Origin: Blastocatellia bacterium | Lineage (GTDB): Bacteria > Acidobacteriota > Blastocatellia > Pyrinomonadales > Pyrinomonadaceae | Assembly (NCBI GenBank): GCA_003175865.1 | Contig: PSRF01000219.1 | Span: 1-12,088 of the forward strand | Reading direction: 5' to 3' | DNA: 12,088 nucleotides | The notes under the pieces: generated by a model | Seen by the model: only the letters and a program-made list of their open reading frames with translations | What the model was told of the DNA's origin: nothing | The model's database searches: none | Position numbers and translations under genes: made by a program | Part shown: positions 2,212-10,936 of the stretch, piece by piece | How positions within the stretch are numbered: position 1 is the stretch's first letter | How the letters are laid out: the number at the start of each line of letters is the position of its first letter

Positions 2212-2226
2212 ATGTTTACCAATTGA
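2212..2226 (+). other. Four-codon leader ORF overlapping the next start (TTGA)
   Basis: An ATG with good Shine-Dalgarno spacing encodes only M-F-T-N and then TGA at 2224-2226. That stop overlaps the TTG at 2223 that starts the downstream frame (TTGA, analogous to ATGA couplings). It may be a leader for translational coupling. Alternatively the true start is this ATG and a one-base sequence error or frameshift separates it from the downstream gene. Confidence 0.35.
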
Positions 2227-3467
2227 CCTTGAACGATCAAAACGATTCATTGACATCTGATCGATTTCTTAATGCCTTCACGGACCTTCTCGCATGGTGT
2301 CGAGCTCACGGTTTTACTGGTCACGATCCATTCGATGCGCTCAACAGTTCCCTCTTCCAAAAAACTCCCTTAGCAAAATCGCGCAACGCGCGACTCATCT
2401 GGACGCAACTCATAAAGCGCTCACCTTCTGATCTACGAACAATTGCTCGTGTTCCCCGTCAACGCAACTCAAAAGGCATCGCTCTGTTTGCCTTAGCCCT
2501 GTTAGCAAATTATCGAAGAGTCAAAACTCTTGAATCGGAAAAAGCCGCGCGTGAGATGTTGGACGCATTGTTATCGATGAAATTTGACATCGACAGTGGG
2601 CAGAATGTCTGTTGTGGTACGGCCTGGGGTTACAACTTTGATTGGCAGAGCCGAAATTTCTTCGCTCCTCAAGGAACCCCAACGATCGTGCCTACCGCGT
2701 TCGCAGTACGTGCCTTGGTGGATGCGGCTCACACTCTAGGAGATCCCATCTACCTGAAGACAGCTCAAGAAGCTTGTCACTGGATCAAAAGCGACCTTGC
2801 TGTAAGCTGGTCGACAGAAGATGAGCTCTGTTTCAGTTATTCGTCACTGAGTTCGACGCAAATCTACAACGCAAGTCTGCTCGCCGCTGAAGCACTTGCG
2901 GAGGTCGGCACAATCGACAAGGAGGTCGAACTGTTGTGCTTGGCCGAACGTGCGTCGCGTTATGTCATTAATCGCCAGCAGTCCGATGGCTCCTGGACCT
3001 ACGGAACAGAACCAGCACAATCCTGGATTGACAATTTCCACACCGCTTTCATCTTATTTTCGCTGTCGCGCATCATAAAGCGTTGCTCATTGGGTCCGGA
3101 GTTTCAGCAAGCGCTTGAGCGTGGATATAAGTATTGGAAGAAAAACTTTTTTCTTGCTGATGGTTGGCCGAAATATTATGCGGAAGACATGTATCCTGCA
3201 GACGCACATGCTGGCGCAAGCGCCATTATTACGTTTCTCGAACTCCAGTCTTTAGATAAAAATGCGGCCCAGCTGGCTGAAAAAGTCGCCGATTGGACCA
3301 TTCGAAATCTGCGCGATGAAAAGGGTTTCTTCTATTATCAGCGTCGCAGATTCTATACGGTGAAGACGCCATACATGCGCTGGAGTCAGGCCTGGATGTT
3401 GTATGCTCTCGCACGTTTACTGGAGGATCGCGGCGGCCAAAGTCAGGAAACAATAACGACAAGCTAA
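2223..3467 (+). CDS. Alpha/alpha-toroid protein, VpsJ-like polysaccharide biosynthesis protein
   Basis: The 414-residue protein is soluble, with no signal peptide or membrane helix. It has several helical repeats with aromatic and small-residue signatures typical of (alpha/alpha)6 toroid folds (terpene cyclase, C5-epimerase and glycoside hydrolase-like): TPTIVPTAFAVRAL, GSWTYG then WIDNFHTAF, DAHAGASA, and a C-terminal YMRWSQAWMLYAL. That last signature resembles the VpsJ family found in exopolysaccharide clusters and the C-terminal half of glucuronyl C5-epimerases. No catalytic activity can be assigned from sequence alone. The only workable start in frame is TTG (2223 or 2229), because the first internal Met is far inside the fold; see the leader ORF at 2212. 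The stop TAA lies inside a 25-bp palindromic repeat that also abuts the next gene. Confidence 0.7.
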   Translation: MTLNDQNDSLTSDRFLNAFTDLLAWCRAHGFTGHDPFDALNSSLFQKTPLAKSRNARLIWTQLIKRSPSDLRTIARVPRQRNSKGIALFALALLANYRRVKTLESEKAAREMLDALLSMKFDIDSGQNVCCGTAWGYNFDWQSRNFFAPQGTPTIVPTAFAVRALVDAAHTLGDPIYLKTAQEACHWIKSDLAVSWSTEDELCFSYSSLSSTQIYNASLLAAEALAEVGTIDKEVELLCLAERASRYVINRQQSDGSWTYGTEPAQSWIDNFHTAFILFSLSRIIKRCSLGPEFQQALERGYKYWKKNFFLADGWPKYYAEDMYPADAHAGASAIITFLELQSLDKNAAQLAEKVADWTIRNLRDEKGFFYYQRRRFYTVKTPYMRWSQAWMLYALARLLEDRGGQSQETITTS

Positions 3468-3480
3468 GGCTTATCGCACA
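3456..3480 (+). repeat. Family I palindromic repeat, copy A
   Basis: This copy matches the family consensus (arms CGACAAGCT and AGCTTATCG around AA, with a GACA tail) at 23 of 25 positions. It contains the TAA stop of the toroid gene (3465-3467) and ends exactly 6 nt before the ATG of the acyltransferase. Its tail end faces the acyltransferase. Confidence 0.85.
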
Positions 3481-3486
3481 TAAAAC

Positions 3487-3966
3487 ATGCCCATTGCTTC
3501 TGACGTAAAACTTGGACCTGACGTTCGCATCTTTCATCCTGAACTCGTCAACCTGTACGGGTGTTCGATTGGTGCGGAGACGAAGGTTGGATCCTTTGTG
3601 GAAATCCAGAAGAATGCCAGTGTCGGCAAACGCTGCAAGATTTCCTCGCACTCATTCATATGCGAAGGTGTCGAGATCGAAGACGAAGTGTTTGTTGGTC
3701 ACGGCGTAATGTTTACCAACGATATCTATCCACGGGCAGTGAACCCCGATGGATTACCACAGACAGACGCTGATTGGATCGTTGTCAAAACTTTAGTGAA
3801 GCGACGCGCGAGTATTGGCAGTAACGCCACGATCATCGCCGGAGTAACAATTGGCGAGGGTGCGCTCGTGGGCGCCGGCGCGGTGGTGACAAGAGATGTA
3901 CCAGACTTTGCCATAGTCGCTGGTGTTCCTGCACGTGTCACAGGAAAGGTGGCAGATGTCCGATGA
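3487..3966 (+). CDS. Left-handed beta-helix acyltransferase (WbpD/WlbB-like sugar N-acetyltransferase)
   Basis: The 159-residue protein consists of hexapeptide repeats throughout (CSIGAE, ASVGKR, VEIEDEVFVGH, ASIGSNATIIAGVTIGEGALVGAGAVVTRDV) and ends in the usual AGVPARV motif of CoA-dependent acyltransferases. The segment from about 16 to 82 (YGCSIG, FVEIQ, then GVMFTND) resembles WbpD/WlbB, which acetylates the 3-amino group of UDP-2-acetamido-3-amino sugars. Asn78 sits where that family keeps an active-site Asn. It is cytoplasmic and probably works as a homotrimer. The neighbouring Gfo/Idh/MocA dehydrogenase supports an amino-sugar route, but no aminotransferase is in the window. The ATG at 3487 gives a full-length protein and has no Shine-Dalgarno, only repeat copy A 6 nt upstream. 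The TGA stop lies within repeat copy B. Confidence 0.85.
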   Translation: MPIASDVKLGPDVRIFHPELVNLYGCSIGAETKVGSFVEIQKNASVGKRCKISSHSFICEGVEIEDEVFVGHGVMFTNDIYPRAVNPDGLPQTDADWIVVKTLVKRRASIGSNATIIAGVTIGEGALVGAGAVVTRDVPDFAIVAGVPARVTGKVADVR

Positions 3967-3981
3967 GCTTCAGCTTTTCGT
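3957..3981 (-). repeat. Family I palindromic repeat, copy B
   Basis: This minus-oriented copy matches the consensus at 22 of 25 positions. It overlaps the 3' end of the acyltransferase and supplies its TGA stop (3964-3966). With copy A it brackets the acyltransferase as an inverted pair with both GACA ends pointing inward. Confidence 0.8.
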
Positions 3982-4036
3982 GAGCCTGGGAGTCATTCGA
4001 CCGAAGAGAAATCTTGGGTCGAAATTGCGAAACTGA

Positions 4037-4061
4037 ACGACAAGCTAAAGCTTATCGGACA
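4037..4061 (+). repeat. Family I palindromic repeat, copy C (consensus copy)
   Basis: This copy equals the majority consensus at all 25 positions and ends 6 nt before the ATG of the Gfo/Idh/MocA gene. No Shine-Dalgarno sequence separates it from the start. Confidence 0.85.
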
Positions 4062-4067
4062 CTAGAT

Positions 4068-5081
4068 ATGCTTCGAATTGGTGTAATTGGCTACGGATAT
4101 TGGGGACCAAACCTTGTGCGCAACTTCATGGCTGCGCCGGGTTCGTCAGTTGTCGCTGTCTGCGATCTTCAAGATGAGCGCTTGTCCCCTCTGCGCAAAC
4201 TCTACCCGTCCATCAAAGCCACTAAGAATCCAATCGAACTTATCAATGACTCTACTGTGGACGCGGTGGTAATTGCGACTCCCGTTTCTTCACACTTCGA
4301 ACTAGCAATGGCGACGCTCAAAGCCGGCAAACATGTACTGGTCGAGAAGCCCCTGGCGGCAAACTCGGCAGACGCCGCTGGCCTAATTGAGATGGCTGCC
4401 AAACTCAAACTAGTGTTGATGGTCGATCACACTTTCGTTTACACCGACGCCGTTCGCAAGATGCGTAAACTAATTGCGAAAGGGGATCTTGGCGAGATCT
4501 ATTACTACGACGCTGTGCGCGTTAACCTCGGTTTGTTCCAGCATGACGTCAATGTCATCTGGGATCTTGCTATTCACGATCTGTCCATCATGGATTACGT
4601 CCTGCCTCACAGACCCGTTGCCATCTCGGCAACCGGGATGAGCCACGTTCAAGGACAACCGGAAAACGTTGCGTACATAACCTTGTTCTTTAAAGAAGCT
4701 GAGATCGCACACGTCCACGTAAACTGGTTAACGCCAGTGAAAGTACGTCACACCCTAATCGGCGGTAGCGAGAAGATGATTCTCTATGACGATCTTGAGC
4801 CCAGTGAGAAACTCAAAGTTTACGATAAAGGCATCACCGTCAGTCCGGGACCTGAGGATGTTTACAGAATGCTGGTCAGTTATCGTTCCGGCGACATGTA
4901 TGCTCCACGACTCGACAATACCGAGGCCCTTCAGACCGAAGCAATTCACTTTGCAGATTGCATTGAACACGGTACACGACCTGAAACCGATGGCGCAGCA
5001 GGACTGCGAATGGTGAAGATGATTGAAGCCGCTGAGCAATCGCTGCGAAATCGTGGAGCGTTAGTTGAACTGGATCTGTAG
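4068..5081 (+). CDS. Gfo/Idh/MocA-family NAD(P)-dependent sugar dehydrogenase (WbpB/WlbA-like)
   Basis: The 337-residue protein has an N-terminal Rossmann fold with the dinucleotide motif GYGYWG at 8-13, the family EKP motif at 93-95 (Lys94 catalytic), and a substrate-domain segment WDLAIHD at 165-171 whose His170/Asp171 match the usual proton-relay region. Family members oxidise or reduce nucleotide-sugar hydroxyls. The GYGYWGPN variety resembles UDP-GlcNAc-uronate 3-dehydrogenases (WbpB/WlbA), which fits the WbpD-like acyltransferase just upstream. The reading frame is open back to a TTG at 4014, but that extension would translate repeat copy C. The ATG at 4068 places the Rossmann strand at residue 3 as expected, so I use it. 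Only 16 nt separate it from the DUF354 gene, suggesting co-transcription. Confidence 0.9.
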   Translation: MLRIGVIGYGYWGPNLVRNFMAAPGSSVVAVCDLQDERLSPLRKLYPSIKATKNPIELINDSTVDAVVIATPVSSHFELAMATLKAGKHVLVEKPLAANSADAAGLIEMAAKLKLVLMVDHTFVYTDAVRKMRKLIAKGDLGEIYYYDAVRVNLGLFQHDVNVIWDLAIHDLSIMDYVLPHRPVAISATGMSHVQGQPENVAYITLFFKEAEIAHVHVNWLTPVKVRHTLIGGSEKMILYDDLEPSEKLKVYDKGITVSPGPEDVYRMLVSYRSGDMYAPRLDNTEALQTEAIHFADCIEHGTRPETDGAAGLRMVKMIEAAEQSLRNRGALVELDL

Positions 5082-5097
5082 ATGCTGACTTAAGTCC

Positions 5098-6114
5098 ATG
5101 CGACTGTGGATCGACCTCGCAAATTCGCCGCACGTTCCTTTCTTCAAAGCACTGATTAGTCGCTTTAATACTCAAGGTCACGAAGTTGAAACAACGGCTC
5201 GTGACTTCGCTGAAACCTTACCACTCGCGGCCGCAGCCGGTCTCACAACGCATGCCGTCGGTAGTCATGGCGGAGGTCAAGTCTCTGCGAAAGCGACTAA
5301 CTTGATGAATCGCGCGTGGCAACTCGCCGGGTGGGCACGCAAACGAAATTTCGACCTGGCTATCAGCCATAATTCCTACTCGCAGATTCTCGCCGCGCGA
5401 GCGTTGCGTATCAAAAACGTGACGCTGATGGACTACGAATATCAACCCGCGAACCATCTGGCGTTCCGCCTGACTTCACGGCTGATTGTTCCCGCGAGTT
5501 TTCCTGCGAAGCGTCTACGTCGTTACGGTGCTTCTTCACGAAAGGTCCTCCGTTATAATGGGACCAAGGAAGATGTTTACCTCGCCGACTTCACTCCTGA
5601 TCCCAACTTTAAGGCGAAGTTGACTGAACTTGGGATCGACATGAGCAATGTCATCATCCTGGTCCGGCCACCTGCACATGACGCGCTTTATCATCGTTTT
5701 CAAAACAAGTTGTTTGACGAAGCACTAACTCTTCTACTTGGGAACGAGAATGTTCGTGTCGTCTTGTTGCCACGAAATGAGTCACAACGCGCGACTTATT
5801 CTGAGCGCGCCGCCGAGAACTTAATCGTCCCGGCAAAACCACTAGACGGCTCAAATCTAATTGCAGCAAGTGACCTCGTGATAAGTGCTGGTGGAACAAT
5901 CAATCGTGAAGCAGCAGCACTTGGTGTTCCCGCGGCCAGCATCTACGCTGGAAAGTGGGCCGCAGTTGACGAACAGCTAATGAAGGAAGGACGTCTGAAA
6001 AGAATTATCAGCGCTGACGACATCCGTGCGTTAAACCCAGTAAAAAAGCCGCCATTGAATCCGCGGCGTTCCGTAGAGGTTATCGATGAAGTGGTCCGTC
6101 TGATCTTGGAGTAG
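5098..6114 (+). CDS. DUF354 family protein (GT-B-like, polysaccharide cluster)
   Basis: The 338-residue protein begins with MRLWIDLANSPHVPFF, the typical opening of DUF354 proteins, and carries the family block SAGGTINREAA at 263-273 followed by GVPAASIYAGK. The C-terminal block resembles the nucleotide-sugar-binding end of GT-B glycosyltransferases and UDP-GlcNAc 2-epimerases, but no activity is established for the family to my knowledge. It has no signal peptide and is probably cytoplasmic or peripheral to the membrane. It lies 16 nt after the dehydrogenase; the spacer contains the 10-bp palindrome GACTTAAGTC and no Shine-Dalgarno. It is likely a glycosyltransferase or sugar-modifying protein of this locus (inference). 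Confidence 0.85.
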   Translation: MRLWIDLANSPHVPFFKALISRFNTQGHEVETTARDFAETLPLAAAAGLTTHAVGSHGGGQVSAKATNLMNRAWQLAGWARKRNFDLAISHNSYSQILAARALRIKNVTLMDYEYQPANHLAFRLTSRLIVPASFPAKRLRRYGASSRKVLRYNGTKEDVYLADFTPDPNFKAKLTELGIDMSNVIILVRPPAHDALYHRFQNKLFDEALTLLLGNENVRVVLLPRNESQRATYSERAAENLIVPAKPLDGSNLIAASDLVISAGGTINREAAALGVPAASIYAGKWAAVDEQLMKEGRLKRIISADDIRALNPVKKPPLNPRRSVEVIDEVVRLILE

Positions 6115-6121
6115 GCCAGAG

Positions 6122-6153
6122 ATTGCCAATTTTCAATTGCCAATTGCCGATTG
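6122..6153 (+). repeat. Family II 32-bp repeat, copy 2 (after DUF354 gene)
   Basis: This is the inverted partner of 41-72 (26 of 32 positions identical, ungapped). It starts 7 nt after the DUF354 stop and ends 34 nt before the phosphotransferase ATG. It holds tandem CAATTGC-type units. Its ATTGC end faces the DUF354 gene, as the corresponding end of copy 1 faces asnB, so the pair brackets the first five genes. Confidence 0.6.
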
Positions 6154-6187
6154 ATCTTTCATTGTAGTTGGGAACAGTTGCTCTCAA

Positions 6188-7732
6188 ATGCGAGCTGAGC
6201 GGAAGAAAACCAGGCTATTGGAACCCAGCGATGTGCGTGTTCCCGGACGTGCGCCTCGTTGGATTGTTCCCACTGTAAAGGGAGCGCTTTTAATTTTCGA
6301 CGCTCTGGCCGCAGCGTTCTCATTCATCGCAGCATTCACGGTCCGCGAACACACGTCTGCTTTTCTTTCAAACCAAACGTTCGCATGGAGTCGAGAATTC
6401 GCACCGTACGGAGCGCTTTTGATCTTCGTCGTTTGCATTCGCCTGCTGACTCTACGTTACGTCGATCTCTATCGCATTCGTGGCGAGTTTTCATTTGTCG
6501 ACGAAGGATTAAGAGTCTTCAAAGCGACCGCGATCGGGTCGCTGCTAATTGTGGCGGCCGCTTTCCTGTATCGCGGTGGTTTTACATTTCGCGCCTTCTC
6601 TTACGCGCGTGGTGTTTTTGTATACGACTTTGTATTGGCACTTGTAACTATCGGGACTGTCAGGTTCCTGATGCGTACCGTTCAGATCGTTGTGCGGCGG
6701 CGTCAGGTTAATCTAATCCCGACGCTGGTTGTCGGACGTGGTCCAGAAGCTTCTTTCTGCATACGCGAAATGCGTGAACACCCCGAACTTGGTTATCGCG
6801 TAATTGGCATTGTGGACATTACAAACAATGGGGGGACAAGCACGTACGAAGGCGTTCCGGTTGTGAGTGACCTCAGTGGACTGCCTGATGCTATTCGTGA
6901 TTCCGGCGCAAATGAAGTGATCATAGCCGACCCACAAGTCAACAGCGACGCGCTTTTCGAGGTGATGATTCGGTGTGGTCGACGGCGTGGTGTCGAGTTT
7001 CGCATAGCGCCGAGTTTGTTCAATTGCCTGCCGCGCAAAACTGAAATCGATCAGATTGGCGTGCTGCCAATGATTCGCCTGTTTCGTGAGCCGCTCTCCA
7101 GTGGCGCACGACTGGTGAAGCGCGCGTCCGATCTCCTTCTCTCTGGTCTGGCGATTTCATTGCTCTTTCCTATCTGGCTTCTCATCGCACTGTTTATCAA
7201 ACTCGATTCAAAGGGTCCTATCTTCTACACACAAGACCGTGTGGGAATGGATGGGCGGCTCTTCCTTCTGTACAAGTTTCGCACGATGAGGGCTGGAGCG
7301 GATCCGGAGCTACACAAGGAATACCAACGCGCATTCATTGCTGGCCGCGCCGAAGCAAATTTGGGCGATCAAGACAAACCGACTTACAAAATACTTGCTG
7401 ATCCGCGCATCACTCGTGTTGGAAAATACTTGCGTCGCTTAAGCCTTGATGAGGTGCCACAACTATTCAACGTATTGATGGGCGACATGAGCGTTGTTGG
7501 ACCACGTCCACCAATTCCGTACGAAGTCGAGGCCTATGAGGTCTGGCATCGAAAGCGTTTGGACATGAAGCCGGGCCTCACTGGACTGTGGCAAGTGTCA
7601 GGGAGAAATCGTTTGCCGTTCGAGGAGATGGTCCGGCTTGACTTGTTCTACATTGAGAACTGGTCGTTGTTGCTTGATCTGAAAATTATTCTTCGCACCG
7701 GCTTCGTCATGCTCGGCGGCGAAGGATTCTAA
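6188..7732 (+). CDS. Polyprenyl-phosphate sugar phosphotransferase (WbaP/WcaJ-type initiating transferase)
   Basis: The 514-residue inner-membrane protein moves a sugar-1-phosphate from a nucleotide sugar to undecaprenyl phosphate, the first committed step of polysaccharide repeat assembly. Four N-terminal membrane segments lie at about 30-52, 73-95, 113-129 and 142-162. A Rossmann-like domain follows at about 175-290 (TLVVGRG at 179-185). The catalytic bacterial sugar transferase domain starts with a re-entrant hydrophobic helix at about 313-338 and has KFRTM at 363-367, the acidic pair Asp421-Glu422 in SLDEVPQ, GPRPP at 438-442 and KPGLTGLWQVSGR at 461-473. The length fits the large WbaP/WcaJ class, and all key residues are present. 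The sugar (glucose, galactose or other) cannot be read from sequence. No convincing Shine-Dalgarno precedes the ATG. It is followed by a hairpin and then a convergent gene. Confidence 0.94.
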   Translation: MRAERKKTRLLEPSDVRVPGRAPRWIVPTVKGALLIFDALAAAFSFIAAFTVREHTSAFLSNQTFAWSREFAPYGALLIFVVCIRLLTLRYVDLYRIRGEFSFVDEGLRVFKATAIGSLLIVAAAFLYRGGFTFRAFSYARGVFVYDFVLALVTIGTVRFLMRTVQIVVRRRQVNLIPTLVVGRGPEASFCIREMREHPELGYRVIGIVDITNNGGTSTYEGVPVVSDLSGLPDAIRDSGANEVIIADPQVNSDALFEVMIRCGRRRGVEFRIAPSLFNCLPRKTEIDQIGVLPMIRLFREPLSSGARLVKRASDLLLSGLAISLLFPIWLLIALFIKLDSKGPIFYTQDRVGMDGRLFLLYKFRTMRAGADPELHKEYQRAFIAGRAEANLGDQDKPTYKILADPRITRVGKYLRRLSLDEVPQLFNVLMGDMSVVGPRPPIPYEVEAYEVWHRKRLDMKPGLTGLWQVSGRNRLPFEEMVRLDLFYIENWSLLLDLKIILRTGFVMLGGEGF

Positions 7733-7757
7733 TATTCGACTAACTTCGACTTGTCGT
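7733..7757 (-). repeat. Probable degenerate family I repeat after the phosphotransferase gene
   Basis: Directly after the stop codon, 17 of 25 positions match the reverse-oriented consensus, including an intact CTTGTCGT end. Orientation follows the family rule (tail end toward the coding sequence). Divergence is high, so it may be chance similarity. Confidence 0.35.
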
Positions 7758-7764
7758 TAAGACA

Positions 7765-7789
7765 GGTGGCGTCCACCGTCGACGCCATC
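7765..7789. terminator. Hairpin between convergent genes
   Basis: GGTGGCGTC pairs with GACGCCATC (9 bp with one G-T wobble) around a 7-nt loop. It lies 32 nt after the phosphotransferase stop and faces the end of the convergent peptidase gene. No T-run follows on the plus strand, so a classical intrinsic terminator is not proven. Confidence 0.4.
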
Positions 7790-7814
7790 TATGGTTCAAT
7801 GATTCTGAAAGGTT

Positions 7815-7839
7815 ACGACAAGCTGAAGCCTATCGGAGA
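7815..7839 (+). repeat. Family I palindromic repeat, copy D
   Basis: This copy matches the consensus at 22 of 25 positions. It overlaps the 3' end of the minus-strand peptidase gene and supplies its TAG stop (7830-7832). Relative to that gene the stop falls at the same position within the repeat as in copy B. The tail end faces the coding sequence. Confidence 0.8.
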
Positions 7840-9077
7840 TCACTCGCCAGTCCGGCTAGTGCGACTTCCAGCAAAAGCATCTTCTTAATTCCCTTGTAAA
7901 GAGGTTCTATTTCACAGTTCTCTGTCAAGGCGTGTGAATCATTGCATGGACCAGCGCCGGTCGAGATTGAAGTAATTCCTTGTAGGAGCGCAGCACTCGA
8001 GTTGTTCGAACCAGCATTCCCGATTGGCGGTTCAAATCCCATTGCGCGATGCACTGCTTCTGCAATCTTTACCAACTCCGAGTCGCGATTTCCCGGCAAC
8101 ACAGCCGCTGGCGATGATGAAATTAAATCCGTCTTCACCGTCATACCGACGCGCTTTGCTTCTTCATCCAGTATCGCGGCAATCTTCTTCTCAAGGTCTG
8201 CAATAACGGCGTTGTCAGTTGAACGTAGATCGACAGAGAACCACGCATCCGAAGCTTTCGCATTCACGACTTCGGAGCCACCCAGCATCCCGATGTTCAA
8301 GTTGGAAGATGGATTCGTAGGGACTTTCAGTTCGTAAATCCGATTGATCGCTCGCGACAAAGGCAACGTCGCTGAATATGGCGGTGTACGTGAACGGGTG
8401 TGACCACCTGGTCCAATGAAATGGTGACGATACCAGTTGATTCCAATACCGGCATATGTGAACCCTTCGTAACCACCATCGAGCGCGACGTAATAATCAA
8501 CTTTTCCTTTGTTCTCCTTCGTGAAGAACTTGGCGCCAGACATGCCCGCCTCTTCATCTGTCGTGAAAACGAAGACCAGGTCGCCTTTTGTTTTGATTTT
8601 TGCAGCATCAAGGGCCCGTATTGTTGTCAGCAACGCTTCAATGTTACGCGTGTCGTCACCAATTCCAGGGGCATAAACACGGCCGTCGCGCACTGTCGCC
8701 TTGATCTTCAAGCCTGGCTGGAACACGGTGTCCATGTGCGCGTCGAAAACGGTGATTGGACCACCGCCGACTCCTTTCCGCACCCCTATTAAGTTGCCTG
8801 CCGCGTCGAAACGAATGTCCTGTAACTTGTACTTTCGCAGCAAGCTCTCGATGTACTTGGCGCGCTCCTGCTCCTGCTTGGACGGTGCGTTGATCTCGGT
8901 GATTGCTATCCATTCCTTCAGAATTGAGTCGTGGTTCTTGTCGATGTAATCGTTCGCTGTACTGAATTGCGGGTCAGATTGGATCGCTTTTACTCGATCG
9001 AGATACTGCGCCCCTTGCGACAAGGCGAGCGATGATACAAGCAGACACAAGACCAGACCCGGAGCAACTTTGTACAT
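7830..9077 (-). CDS. Secreted M20-family metallopeptidase (PepT-like aminopeptidase)
   Basis: The 415-residue protein has an N-terminal hydrophobic signal peptide (about 1-22, ending near SQGAQ) and is expected to be exported. Two-zinc M20 residues are visible: HMD at 114-116, bridging-type Asp in GIGDD at 138-142, TTDEE at 172-176 (catalytic Glu and metal ligand), ALDGG around Asp200, and SHALTE with His382. PGGHTR at 223-228 begins the dimerisation-domain segment. The family hydrolyses short peptides or amide bonds; the substrate is unknown. A proper Shine-Dalgarno GAGGAA lies 5 nt before this ATG (9083-9088 on the minus strand), unlike most genes here. It lies opposite to, and interrupts, the polysaccharide genes, and is bracketed by repeat copies D and E. 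There is no obvious polysaccharide role. Confidence 0.9.
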   Translation of the reverse strand: MYKVAPGLVLCLLVSSLALSQGAQYLDRVKAIQSDPQFSTANDYIDKNHDSILKEWIAITEINAPSKQEQERAKYIESLLRKYKLQDIRFDAAGNLIGVRKGVGGGPITVFDAHMDTVFQPGLKIKATVRDGRVYAPGIGDDTRNIEALLTTIRALDAAKIKTKGDLVFVFTTDEEAGMSGAKFFTKENKGKVDYYVALDGGYEGFTYAGIGINWYRHHFIGPGGHTRSRTPPYSATLPLSRAINRIYELKVPTNPSSNLNIGMLGGSEVVNAKASDAWFSVDLRSTDNAVIADLEKKIAAILDEEAKRVGMTVKTDLISSSPAAVLPGNRDSELVKIAEAVHRAMGFEPPIGNAGSNNSSAALLQGITSISTGAGPCNDSHALTENCEIEPLYKGIKKMLLLEVALAGLASDLR

Positions 9078-9151
9078 GGAATTTCCTCGAGGATGGAATA
9101 TATTAAGAACGCCGCCATTCTAATCAGTTCTTGCTCGTCGTGAAAGAACCA

Positions 9152-9176
9152 GGTCCGATAAACTTTAGTTTGTCGT
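9152..9176 (-). repeat. Family I palindromic repeat, copy E (compensatory change)
   Basis: This copy matches the consensus at 22 of 25 positions. Two of the three differences are at paired arm positions (G-C changed to A-T), so the palindrome is preserved. It lies 74 nt upstream of the peptidase start with its tail end facing that gene, and pairs with copy D around the peptidase gene. Confidence 0.8.
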
Positions 9177-9238
9177 TACGCTTGATATCATCCCATTCAC
9201 AGTCCATCAGGTACCCGATGTTGGATTATTGCGAAGTT

Positions 9239-9262
9239 ACGACAAGCTAAGCTTATCGAACA
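9239..9262 (+). repeat. Family I palindromic repeat, copy F
   Basis: This 24-bp copy lacks one A in the centre and has one substitution. It ends 8 nt before the ATG at 9271 (5 nt before a TTG at 9268). No Shine-Dalgarno follows. With copy G it brackets the ligase-family gene. Confidence 0.8.
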
Positions 9263-9270
9263 TTACTTTG

Positions 9271-10812
9271 ATGCCTCCTCCAGACGACGAACTTACAACT
9301 CCCGCAACAAAATGGCTTGACCGTGCCATTATCGGGTGTGTCTTCCTCATCGCCCTTTCTGCGCCTGTTTCGATCGCCGCGAGTCAATCAGCGTGGCTAT
9401 TGGGTATGGTCCTGTGGCTAGCGCGTTTTGCCTTCTATCCACGTCCACGTCTGTCCCGCACACCAGTTGATTACGCGCTATTGGGATTCTTTTTGTTGAG
9501 CGGGCTCTCATCGTTTCTGTCATATCAGCCTGTGTTATCGATTGGCAAAATGCGTGCAGCAAGTCTATTCACAGTCGCGTATCTCATTGCTGAGAACGTT
9601 CGCAGTCTTCGATTGGTGAGAATCCTAGCGCTCACGCTTGTCGTATCAGCGGTCGTTACAGTTCTTCTCACTGTTGGTCAGCTGGCGCTCGGCAAGGGAG
9701 TCAAACTCGAAGGAGTAAAGAAAGAGAGTCCACTGTCACTCGCCGTCTTTCACACCCGAACAGTTCGGCAACCGACACCTATCTTGAGTGGCGACATCGT
9801 TTGGGAAGTAGACAATCAACGGATTCATAACGCGGACGAGTTAGCAGCCGCACTTGCAGCTGCACCAAACTCGCAAAAAGCGGAAGTCAAAATCTACCGA
9901 GTGGAATGGATGCCGACGTTGGAGGTACCTCGCGGTCGTTTGTTGTCGGGCGCAGACGCTAACGAACAACTGGGAATTACCGGGTGGAAGCGTGGGCGTG
10001 ACTGGCGCGCAACAGGGTTCTTTGGACACTGGGTCACGTACGCTGAAGTTATACAGTTAATAGCGTCGCTAACTTTAGGCCTCCTGCTTGCCTTACCTAA
10101 AAAGCAGACGCTGACGGGCGCATTGTTGTTTGTTGCTTTGATTGGCTTGGTCTTCGCATTGGCAATGACAGTCACTCGCGCATCTTGGGCCGGCTTTGCG
10201 GTGTCAGCCGCTCTAATGTTGTTGTTATCCGCCTCTCGCCGCACGCAGGTTATTGCGGCAGCCCTTGCGATCGTACTCGTCATTGGTGGTGTTGTTTTGC
10301 TGCAACAAAGGCGAGCGATTGGGTTCTTCGATCGCAACGATCAATCAACGAGTTGGCGTGAAACAGTTTGGAGAGAAGGTTTTGATTTGCTCGTGAGCAA
10401 ACCAAGGCATCTTGTGGTTGGTGTCGGCATGGATTCGATTAAGGGTCATTGGCGCGAATGGGGTTTGTTTGATCATGGACGATTGCCGATGGGCCACATG
10501 CATTCAGATATGTTGCAAATCGCACTCGAGCGCGGTGTGCCGGCGTTGATTGCGTGGTTAGTGCTACTCGTCGTTTGGGCACGCATGTTGTGGCGAATCG
10601 TTCGACGCGCTACAGGAACCGACGGTGAATCCATTACTAATTCTATTTCGACTGACCGTGGGATTGCGCTGGGCTCGCTCGGAGGGTTGACTGGATTCTT
10701 CACGAGTGGGCTGGTCCATTACAACTGGGGCGACTCGGAAGTGGTGATGGTTTTGTATTTGTTTATGGGACTAACGCTCGTGATCAATCAATTGATGTCC
10801 GATGAGCTTTAG
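9271..10812 (+). CDS. O-antigen ligase/polymerase-family membrane protein with PDZ-like insert
   Basis: The 513-residue polytopic protein has hydrophobic helices at about 18-35, 38-55, 67-83, 97-108, 117-138, 258-276, 283-300, 306-320, 327-345, 423-440, 465-481 and 490-507. Ligase-family signatures are RATGFFGHWVTYA at 246-258, TRASWAG at 302-308 with a conserved Arg, RETVWREG at 363-370, and HSDMLQIALERG at 411-422 with the catalytic-type His411. The family polymerises or ligates lipid-linked glycans on the periplasmic side. Residues about 150-225 form an extra soluble segment that reads like a PDZ domain (GDIVWEVDNQ, then ADELAAALA, then KAEVKIYRVE), placed in the loop before the RATGFFGH motif. 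The frame is open upstream to TTG 9229, but that would translate repeat copy F; ATG 9271 (or TTG 9268) is preferred. The last codons and the TAG stop are formed by repeat copy G. Confidence 0.87.
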   Translation: MPPPDDELTTPATKWLDRAIIGCVFLIALSAPVSIAASQSAWLLGMVLWLARFAFYPRPRLSRTPVDYALLGFFLLSGLSSFLSYQPVLSIGKMRAASLFTVAYLIAENVRSLRLVRILALTLVVSAVVTVLLTVGQLALGKGVKLEGVKKESPLSLAVFHTRTVRQPTPILSGDIVWEVDNQRIHNADELAAALAAAPNSQKAEVKIYRVEWMPTLEVPRGRLLSGADANEQLGITGWKRGRDWRATGFFGHWVTYAEVIQLIASLTLGLLLALPKKQTLTGALLFVALIGLVFALAMTVTRASWAGFAVSAALMLLLSASRRTQVIAAALAIVLVIGGVVLLQQRRAIGFFDRNDQSTSWRETVWREGFDLLVSKPRHLVVGVGMDSIKGHWREWGLFDHGRLPMGHMHSDMLQIALERGVPALIAWLVLLVVWARMLWRIVRRATGTDGESITNSISTDRGIALGSLGGLTGFFTSGLVHYNWGDSEVVMVLYLFMGLTLVINQLMSDEL

Positions 10813-10820
10813 CTTGTCGG
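10796..10820 (-). repeat. Family I palindromic repeat, copy G
   Basis: This copy matches the consensus at 23 of 25 positions. It encodes the last residues of the ligase-family protein (SDEL) and its TAG stop at 10810-10812. The stop uses a different frame of the repeat from copies B and D. The tail end faces the coding sequence. Confidence 0.85.
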
Positions 10821-10911
10821 TCGGCGTGGGGGCCTCAACATCAGGGTAATAGATCGTCTTATTTATCATTGGATCAATAATTCTTTCGTAGGTTTAGTCT
10901 TGTTAGAGTAG

Positions 10912-10936
10912 ACGACTAGCTGAAGCTTATCGGACA
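10912..10936 (+). repeat. Family I palindromic repeat, copy H
   Basis: This copy matches the consensus at 23 of 25 positions and ends exactly 6 nt before the ATG of yjbQ, as copies A and C do for their genes. No Shine-Dalgarno intervenes. The rest of the spacer (10821-10911) shows nothing I can name. Confidence 0.85.

Follow-up and report, generated by a model that had tools for sequence, protein, structure and literature searches.

The window analysed here, positions 1 to 12,088 of contig PSRF01000219.1 (12,088 nucleotides, nt) from a Blastocatellia bacterium of the family Pyrinomonadaceae, carries a series of short imperfect palindromes at or near the ends of its genes (Table 1). These palindromes belong to a family of repetitive extragenic palindromes (REPs), and of REP doublets forming hairpins (REPINs), with an atypical tag in Blastocatellia-type Acidobacteriota. 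An earlier note had drawn attention to eight copies, and all of them are present: seven match CGACAAGCTNAAGCTTATCGGAC with at most two mismatches (1-based starts 3457, 3958, 4038, 7816, 9153, 10797, and 10913), and the one at 9239/9240 has, as read by eye, a single loop base deleted. A ninth, decayed copy at 7734-7756 (seven mismatches) is likely the partner of the copy at 7816, and the copies are grouped as four doublets and one lone copy at 3457, for which nothing better than 11 mismatches was found in a search for a partner in 3330-3456. Four copies reach into the end of a coding sequence and take in its stop codon; the overlap is 11 nt at 3457 (with its head), 9 nt at 3958, 9 nt at 7816, and 16 nt at 10797.

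Table 1. Repeat copies and adjoining genes in the window; the last row gives matches in related genomes to the C-terminal end of a REP-associated tyrosine transposase (RAYT)
Feature	Position	Strand	Remarks
Lone REP copy	3457..3480	+	Head contains the stop of the gene at 2223-3467; tail 7 nt from the ATG at 3487
REPIN-like doublet	3957..4061	.	'-' REP 3958-3980, 57-nt spacer, '+' REP 4038-4060; occupies the gap between the hexapeptide acetyltransferase and Gfo/Idh/MocA genes; folds into one long hairpin (RNA z -8.2)
Doublet, left arm decayed	7734..7838	.	Left arm 7734-7756 (7 mismatches), '+' REP 7816-7838, whose tail provides the stop of the minus-strand M20 peptidase
Doublet	9153..9262	.	'-' REP 9153-9175, '+' REP ~9240-9262 with one-base loop deletion; RNA fold z -3.6
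Doublet	10797..10936	.	'-' REP 10797-10819, containing the stop of the O-antigen ligase gene; '+' REP 10913-10935; RNA fold z -5.4
Hexapeptide acetyltransferase gene	3487..3966	+	Final codons and stop (GTC CGA TGA) within REP tail
M20-family peptidase gene	7830..9077	-	C-terminus GLASDLR*, stop from REP
O-antigen ligase gene	9271..10812	+	Ends within a REP
L268 RAYT C-terminal matches	G008:C471:731-850; G013:C580:137-262; G007:C244:15024-15164		E 0.064; E 2.4e-4; E 0.021

The window's genome (3.57 Mb in 436 contigs, 62% complete) holds 164 matches at up to three mismatches, compared with none for a reversed control pattern. Our closer analysis used a sample of about 696 kb, made up of the window and 80 fetched pieces that were picked mainly because they hold listed copies; its genes were predicted by a simple custom script, so that starts are less certain than stops. 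This sample contains 146 copies at up to four mismatches, and because one shuffle of it gave only two matches, both at six mismatches, a chance origin of the copies is excluded. The claim that copies occur nowhere inside genes is not strictly true, the copies being mostly but not wholly extragenic: predicted genes contain 5 of the 146, in addition to the adjoining stop codons held by four window copies. The relative G008 (88% complete), which had the most copies in our genome comparison, has the repeat at 359 places, with 7 of 63 copies inside predicted genes, and most of the 100 places listed carry GCATATCGGACAT. Such differences in subtype between genomes are as expected of separate amplification. 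At least 69 named records contain the exact repeat; those listed are from Acidobacteriota, under the labels Pyrinomonadaceae, Blastocatellia, Aridibacter, Chloracidobacterium, gp4, or just Acidobacteria. Of the 15 other genomes of the same genus, 7 are without any copy at up to three mismatches.

The copies are arranged in a characteristic way. Among 59 pairs of neighbouring copies in the sample (up to 300 bp apart, up to five mismatches), 54 are tail-out, three tandem forward, and two tandem reverse; in 20 contigs of G008, 24 of 25 pairs are tail-out. At each end, a 5'-(A)TGTCC tag precedes an imperfect hairpin (CGATAAGCTTYAGCTTGTCG), and a variable spacer separates the two ends, which are inverted with their GTCC tags outward. 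Tags that point outward are also found in the REPINs of Pseudomonas and other bacteria. The conserved stretch spans about 25 nt, beyond which spacers are dissimilar between copies, although some arms share a TTCAACT-type motif placed about 16 nt inward, and in 62 spacers no clear excess of pairing between the arms was found at any of 14 positions.

In regard to orientation, the earlier note had proposed one rule for both gene ends, by which the tail points into the adjacent gene. The tail is indeed directed at a neighbouring gene boundary in all eight window copies, though not always at the nearer end, as the copies at 3457 and 9153 illustrate, the latter lying with its tail 75 nt from the peptidase start. 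In the fetched part of the genome, orientation is not random and copies are enriched at gene 3' ends: among the 125 copies that have a gene on either side, the tail is the nearer end in 100 and the head in 25. The 48 copies outside doublets comprise 24 with the tail nearer, 11 with the head nearer, 11 at contig edges, and 2 inside genes. Much of the rule arises from geometry, since the two tails of a tail-out doublet that occupies a short spacer face the genes on either side. We therefore compared the observed distances with a sliding null in which 46 of 49 doublets were moved within their own gaps 2000 times (two at contig edges and one inside a gene being omitted). Of the 50 doublet tails that face a stop codon, 35 are no more than 10 nt from it (null mean 21.7, maximum 30); of the 42 that face a start, 10 are that close (null mean 17.0). 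Thus, the hugging of stop codons exceeds what doublet geometry yields, whereas starts are not enriched, and no single rule covers both gene ends; the 5' half is a consequence of doublets that occupy the spacer. A fixed spacing between tail and start was considered and rejected as a general feature: the 6-8 nt seen at four starts of the window are a minor trend in the sample, where 12 of the 60 starts on the tail side are no more than 10 nt away and seven of the 60 exactly 7 nt, three of these seven being in the window. Counts for relatives, made without the sliding null, show the pattern again in G008 and more weakly elsewhere. In 20 contigs of G008 the repeat is within 10 nt of a gene end on its tail side in 16 of 27 cases, of a start on that side in 2 of 26, and of a head-side boundary in none of 52; the corresponding figures for 69 loci of other named relatives are 14 of 49, 2 of 53, and none of 112, and there the tail is nearer in 63 cases and the head in 30.

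The repeat often supplies the stop codon itself. In the sample, 32 of 74 tail-side gene ends have their stop within the repeat or at its junction, and the tail-to-stop distances of +1, -9, and -16 (14, 7, and 11 of the 74) correspond to the three reading frames of TAATGTCCGATAAGCTTTAG. Read from outside, the tail contains stops in two frames (GTC CGA TAA; TCC GAT AAG CTT TAG), and a third-frame stop arises when T precedes AATGTCC. In G008 there is no case at -9, as opposed to five at -16 and three at +1, and the commonest subtype listed there is one without the -9 stop. The supply of stops by REP termini has already been described for GTAG REPs in parts of PMC3733652.

In a comparison of orthologous loci within the genus, the repeat is absent from 12 of 12 loci at the acetyltransferase/Gfo junction and from 10 of 10 at the peptidase 3' end, so the two window elements tested are lineage-specific. 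Where the window's M20 peptidase ends GLASDLR*, five of its ten orthologs end GLAQ*, GLSQ*, or GLAN* and the other five otherwise. At a third locus, 11 of 13 listed orthologous loci were read downstream (L340-L350), and one, L345 in the genome G007, has its own doublet 7 nt past the stop. No consistent target-site duplication was found in 80 doublets, for lengths of 2-9 nt at seven boundary offsets and relative to shuffled flanks; the largest departures were four matches versus 1.9 in the 3-nt class, two versus 0.3 in the 4-nt class at one offset, and a single 6-nt match.

A candidate mobilising enzyme emerged from a search for genes between distant tail-out copies. One of six such intervals, L040, has between its repeats a RAYT-like gene that carries an in-frame stop. 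An alignment of eight members of the related RAYT clade (A1; 212-269 amino acids, aa) matched the NCBIfam family REP_Tyr_transpos (NF047646) in 8 of 8 cases at E ≤0.01 (best 4.5e-20), with weaker matches to PF01797 also in 8 of 8; L268 scores below the curated cut-offs of both (47.9 of 80 and 18.2 of 23). Against the PDB, the only match of the A1 profile at E ≤0.01 was TnpAREP (4er8; E 1.1e-5). The NHxH motif and a tyrosine before NPVK are invariant in all eight members, and the tyrosine region aligns to 4er8. At a threshold of 1e-60 the clade is present in 13 of 162 genomes of the class. In 15 clade or near-clade loci, a script for flanking palindromes found the same palindrome on both sides in 11; in the rest, a motif scan found it on both sides of L268 and L310 and no palindrome was found at L312 and L322. 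Six further RAYT loci include four with palindromes on both sides, L416, where tagged palindromes lie on a single side, and L414, close to a contig edge, where none was found.

Some of these genes are linked to GTCC palindromes in particular. They lie on both sides of the RAYT at L268/L295 (G013), where each side has a doublet, at L310 (G004), and at L413 (G129), which has a 250-aa open frame without stops; at L299 (G006) a RAYT remnant sits between two GTCC REPs. In a tree of 19 members, from which L299 was left out as too short, L268, L310, and L413 group with L270 and L414, and this five-member group has support of 84/85. A few observations adjoin these results. By eye, the sequences flanking the broken RAYT of L310 and the L299 remnant appear similar, and a single old RAYT insertion may be decaying in both the G004 and G006 lineages. 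At L270 (762-1138 and 1990-2561), the RAYT gene lies between arrays of GTAC-tagged REPs in one orientation throughout, which contrasts with the inverted doublets in the window's genome. Three genomes contain short matches to the C-terminal end of the L268 RAYT (residues ~199-246), repeat-coded part included; with the E-values given in Table 1, they are at most possible spacers derived from a RAYT end.

Ordinary transposases of PF01797 were also considered as mobilisers and rejected. That family has 110 matches in ten genomes, of which the scanned stretches covered part; 38 loci were without a copy at up to six mismatches, and the whole contig L095, scanned alongside, has one copy about 2.8 kb from PF01797 matches. 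Forty further stretches, mostly around PF01797 genes with a few chosen for repeats, yielded copies in eight; in L225 and L241 the distance between a copy and the gene is about 0.3 kb, which a rough density estimate makes compatible with chance. As a class, PF01797 genes show no clear association with the repeats.

Taken together, these findings make it very probable that the palindromes are the ends of a REPIN-like, non-autonomous mobile element that is mobilised by a divergent RAYT clade and whose copies survive behind genes. Of the possibilities that the earlier note had raised, the terminal repeat of a mobile unit is the best supported, by the tail-out doublets, the lineage-specific sites, and the repeat-flanked transposase clade of relatives. 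Judging from those relatives, the RAYT clade, of the HUH, single-tyrosine, IS200/IS605 type, most likely mobilises the element as single-stranded DNA, which would fit with the absence of a consistent target-site duplication. Copies inserted within genes or before starts would mostly be lost and those at gene 3' ends would survive, presumably under purifying selection, and survival there would be aided by the stops that the tail provides when it is read from outside.

Several results weigh against this reading. The tag in the window's genome is GTCC rather than the canonical GT[AG]G; as atypical tags are reported in parts of PMC6006769, this weakens the label "canonical REP" and not the view that the element works like a REP. 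Three of the four GTCC-linked RAYT loci are damaged, L310 by an in-frame stop, L268 by loss of its N-terminus, and L299 as a remnant. No cognate RAYT of the clade was found in the window's genome at 62% completeness, where the best RAYT match is distant (40 bits) and has no repeat adjoining, nor in G008 at 88%, which has at best a possible RAYT remnant of 37 residues (E 0.064) at a place where the repeat also lies. In the 69 loci from other relatives, for which genes were called less completely, stop hugging is weaker, and no excision or transposition has been observed.

Other origins can be weighed on the same evidence. The inverted ends, the outer TG...CA termini, and the short internal sequence would suit miniature inverted-repeat transposable elements (MITEs) moved by a classical DDE transposase, but such movement should leave a consistent target-site duplication, which the 80 doublets lack; the spacers are dissimilar between copies, each end is itself a hairpin, and one of the six longer tail-out intervals holds a RAYT-type gene, DDE genes not having been searched by profile. 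We regard this origin as very improbable. The processing or regulatory signal suggested by the earlier note, that is, a conserved RNA processing, termination, or translation signal kept at gene ends by selection for function, is in our estimation highly unlikely as the primary role. Such a function would account for the excess of tail-side stops over the sliding null and for the four doublets folding better as RNA than shuffles do (z -2.7 to -8.2), and REPs within 15 nt of a stop are reported in parts of PMC12306157 to lower translation in E. coli. Yet its sites are not conserved, being absent from every orthologous locus at the two junctions examined, and almost half of the other genomes of the genus do without any copy. 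Moreover, when four single hairpins were folded they proved weak (-5.6 to -13.5 kcal/mol), and stops come from all three frames, as chance insertion predicts.

A third alternative overlaps with the mobile-element reading, in that it accepts a REPIN-like element and attributes stop hugging to a target-site preference of the transposase instead of selection. Tails near gene ends often have ATT beside the tag (26 of 52 ends within 10 nt), yet so do tails elsewhere (14 of 22 other ends and 24 of 60 starts). Flanks are little conserved beyond about 3 nt outside the tag, and this, together with repeat-derived stops in all three frames, means that no stop-codon target is evident. We consider a target preference unlikely, though less so than either a DDE-type MITE or a conserved signal, and retain a RAYT-mobilised element with survival behind genes as our explanation.

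The variety of tags beside this RAYT clade (GTAG, GTGG, GTAA, GTAC, or GTCC) raises the question of how a tag is chosen. Parts of PMC8266576 and PMC6006769 describe Q95 and other residues of E. coli TnpAREP as contacting the tag, which for Q95 is the GTAG motif. The residue aligned to Q95 is Q in L269, L282, L283, and L416, whose repeats are mainly GTAG/GTGG (with one GTAA and one GCAG copy in addition at L269), and E or A in 12 other members, eight of them with only GTAC, GTCC, or GTAA tags (L266, L267, L268, L270, L281, L299, L310, and L413) and four with mixed tags (L296, L411, L412, and L415); the tags were read by eye and clade members are not independent. A strict rule pairing Q with canonical tags and E or A with others is broken by the mixed loci L269, L296, L411, L412, and L415 and serves as a lead only. 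It is a tentative and on balance unlikely idea, drawn from alignments, that the clade could represent a natural retagging series in which the Q95-equivalent position helps set the tag. If so, the GTCC REPINs would be a retagged branch and the cutting site would be predictable from the tag.

The window has further features of its own. An imperfect inverted repeat at 2048-2177 (45-nt arms, 84% complementary, 40 nt apart) lies between an asparagine synthase-like gene and the next gene and is unlike the GTCC repeats, and a second inverted pair, at 30-76 and 6118-6164, consists of CAATTGCCAATT-like units that are 77% complementary. Residues 165-219 of the O-antigen ligase-like protein weakly resemble a PDZ domain (PF13180, below cut-off). 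An Rfam scan of the window gave no match at gathering score.

Our findings add to Blastocatellia-type Acidobacteriota a REPIN/RAYT pair whose tag is not canonical, and they show a mobile repeat that determines where the encoded proteins end because it provides the stop codons of their genes. The tag changes form a natural set that is useful for testing how RAYTs read tags. The results also call for caution, because an apparent orientation rule at gene ends can come from doublet geometry combined with selection. REPs as such are not new in this phylum, since parts of PMC12306157 count them in three Acidobacteriota including Chloracidobacterium thermophilum and parts of PMC6006769 report atypical ones in Solibacter; a literature search on Pyrinomonadaceae with extragenic palindromes found nothing, and one on Acidobacteria that combined such palindromes with transposases found two papers.

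REPINs, REP dimers, their downstream location, and their flanking of RAYT genes are established in the relevant passages of PMC3116915, PMC3733652, and PMC2817692, and canonical GT[AG]G tags, with atypical ones beside RAYT subclass 2.6 and class 3, in those of PMC6006769. The element resembles the REPINs of Pseudomonas and others, as described in parts of PMC3116915, in its inverted palindromes, less conserved spacer, extragenic location, high copy number, long hairpins, and RAYT linkage. It differs in its GTCC tag in place of GTAG/GTGG, in the weak TTCAACT motif of some spacer arms, and in that no cognate RAYT was found in its own genome; stop-codon hugging, seen here, is not a subject of the passages on REPINs in PMC3116915. 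With the GTAG- and CGTC-tagged REPs treated in parts of PMC3733652 it shares short tagged palindromes, a mostly downstream position, termini that often supply stops, and a predominance of inverted dimers, but it has neither tag, and its repeats flank a RAYT clade, which that study did not find for CGTC. The clade agrees with RAYT/TnpAREP, as described in sections of PMC2817692, PMC6006769, and PMC8266576 and represented by 4er8, in its aligned HUH motif and tyrosine and in genes lying between inverted REPs. The A1 proteins are unlike the 165-aa TnpAREP of 4er8 in their greater length, which includes an N-terminal part, and in their weak score against the Pfam Y1_Tnp family, and several clade members depart from RAYT/TnpAREP in carrying GTAC, GTCC, or GTAA tags. 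Also comparable are the Acidobacteria TIRYT (in parts of PMC3733652) and the class 3 TnpA of Solibacter and others (in parts of PMC6006769), which are likewise tyrosine transposases of the same phylum with flanking inverted repeats or tagged hairpins, some of them repeated in the genome. These are described with terminal inverted repeats unrelated to REPs, or with a CnGA foot, and it is by these descriptions, rather than by sequences, that we set the Blastocatellia-type repeats and their RAYT clade apart.

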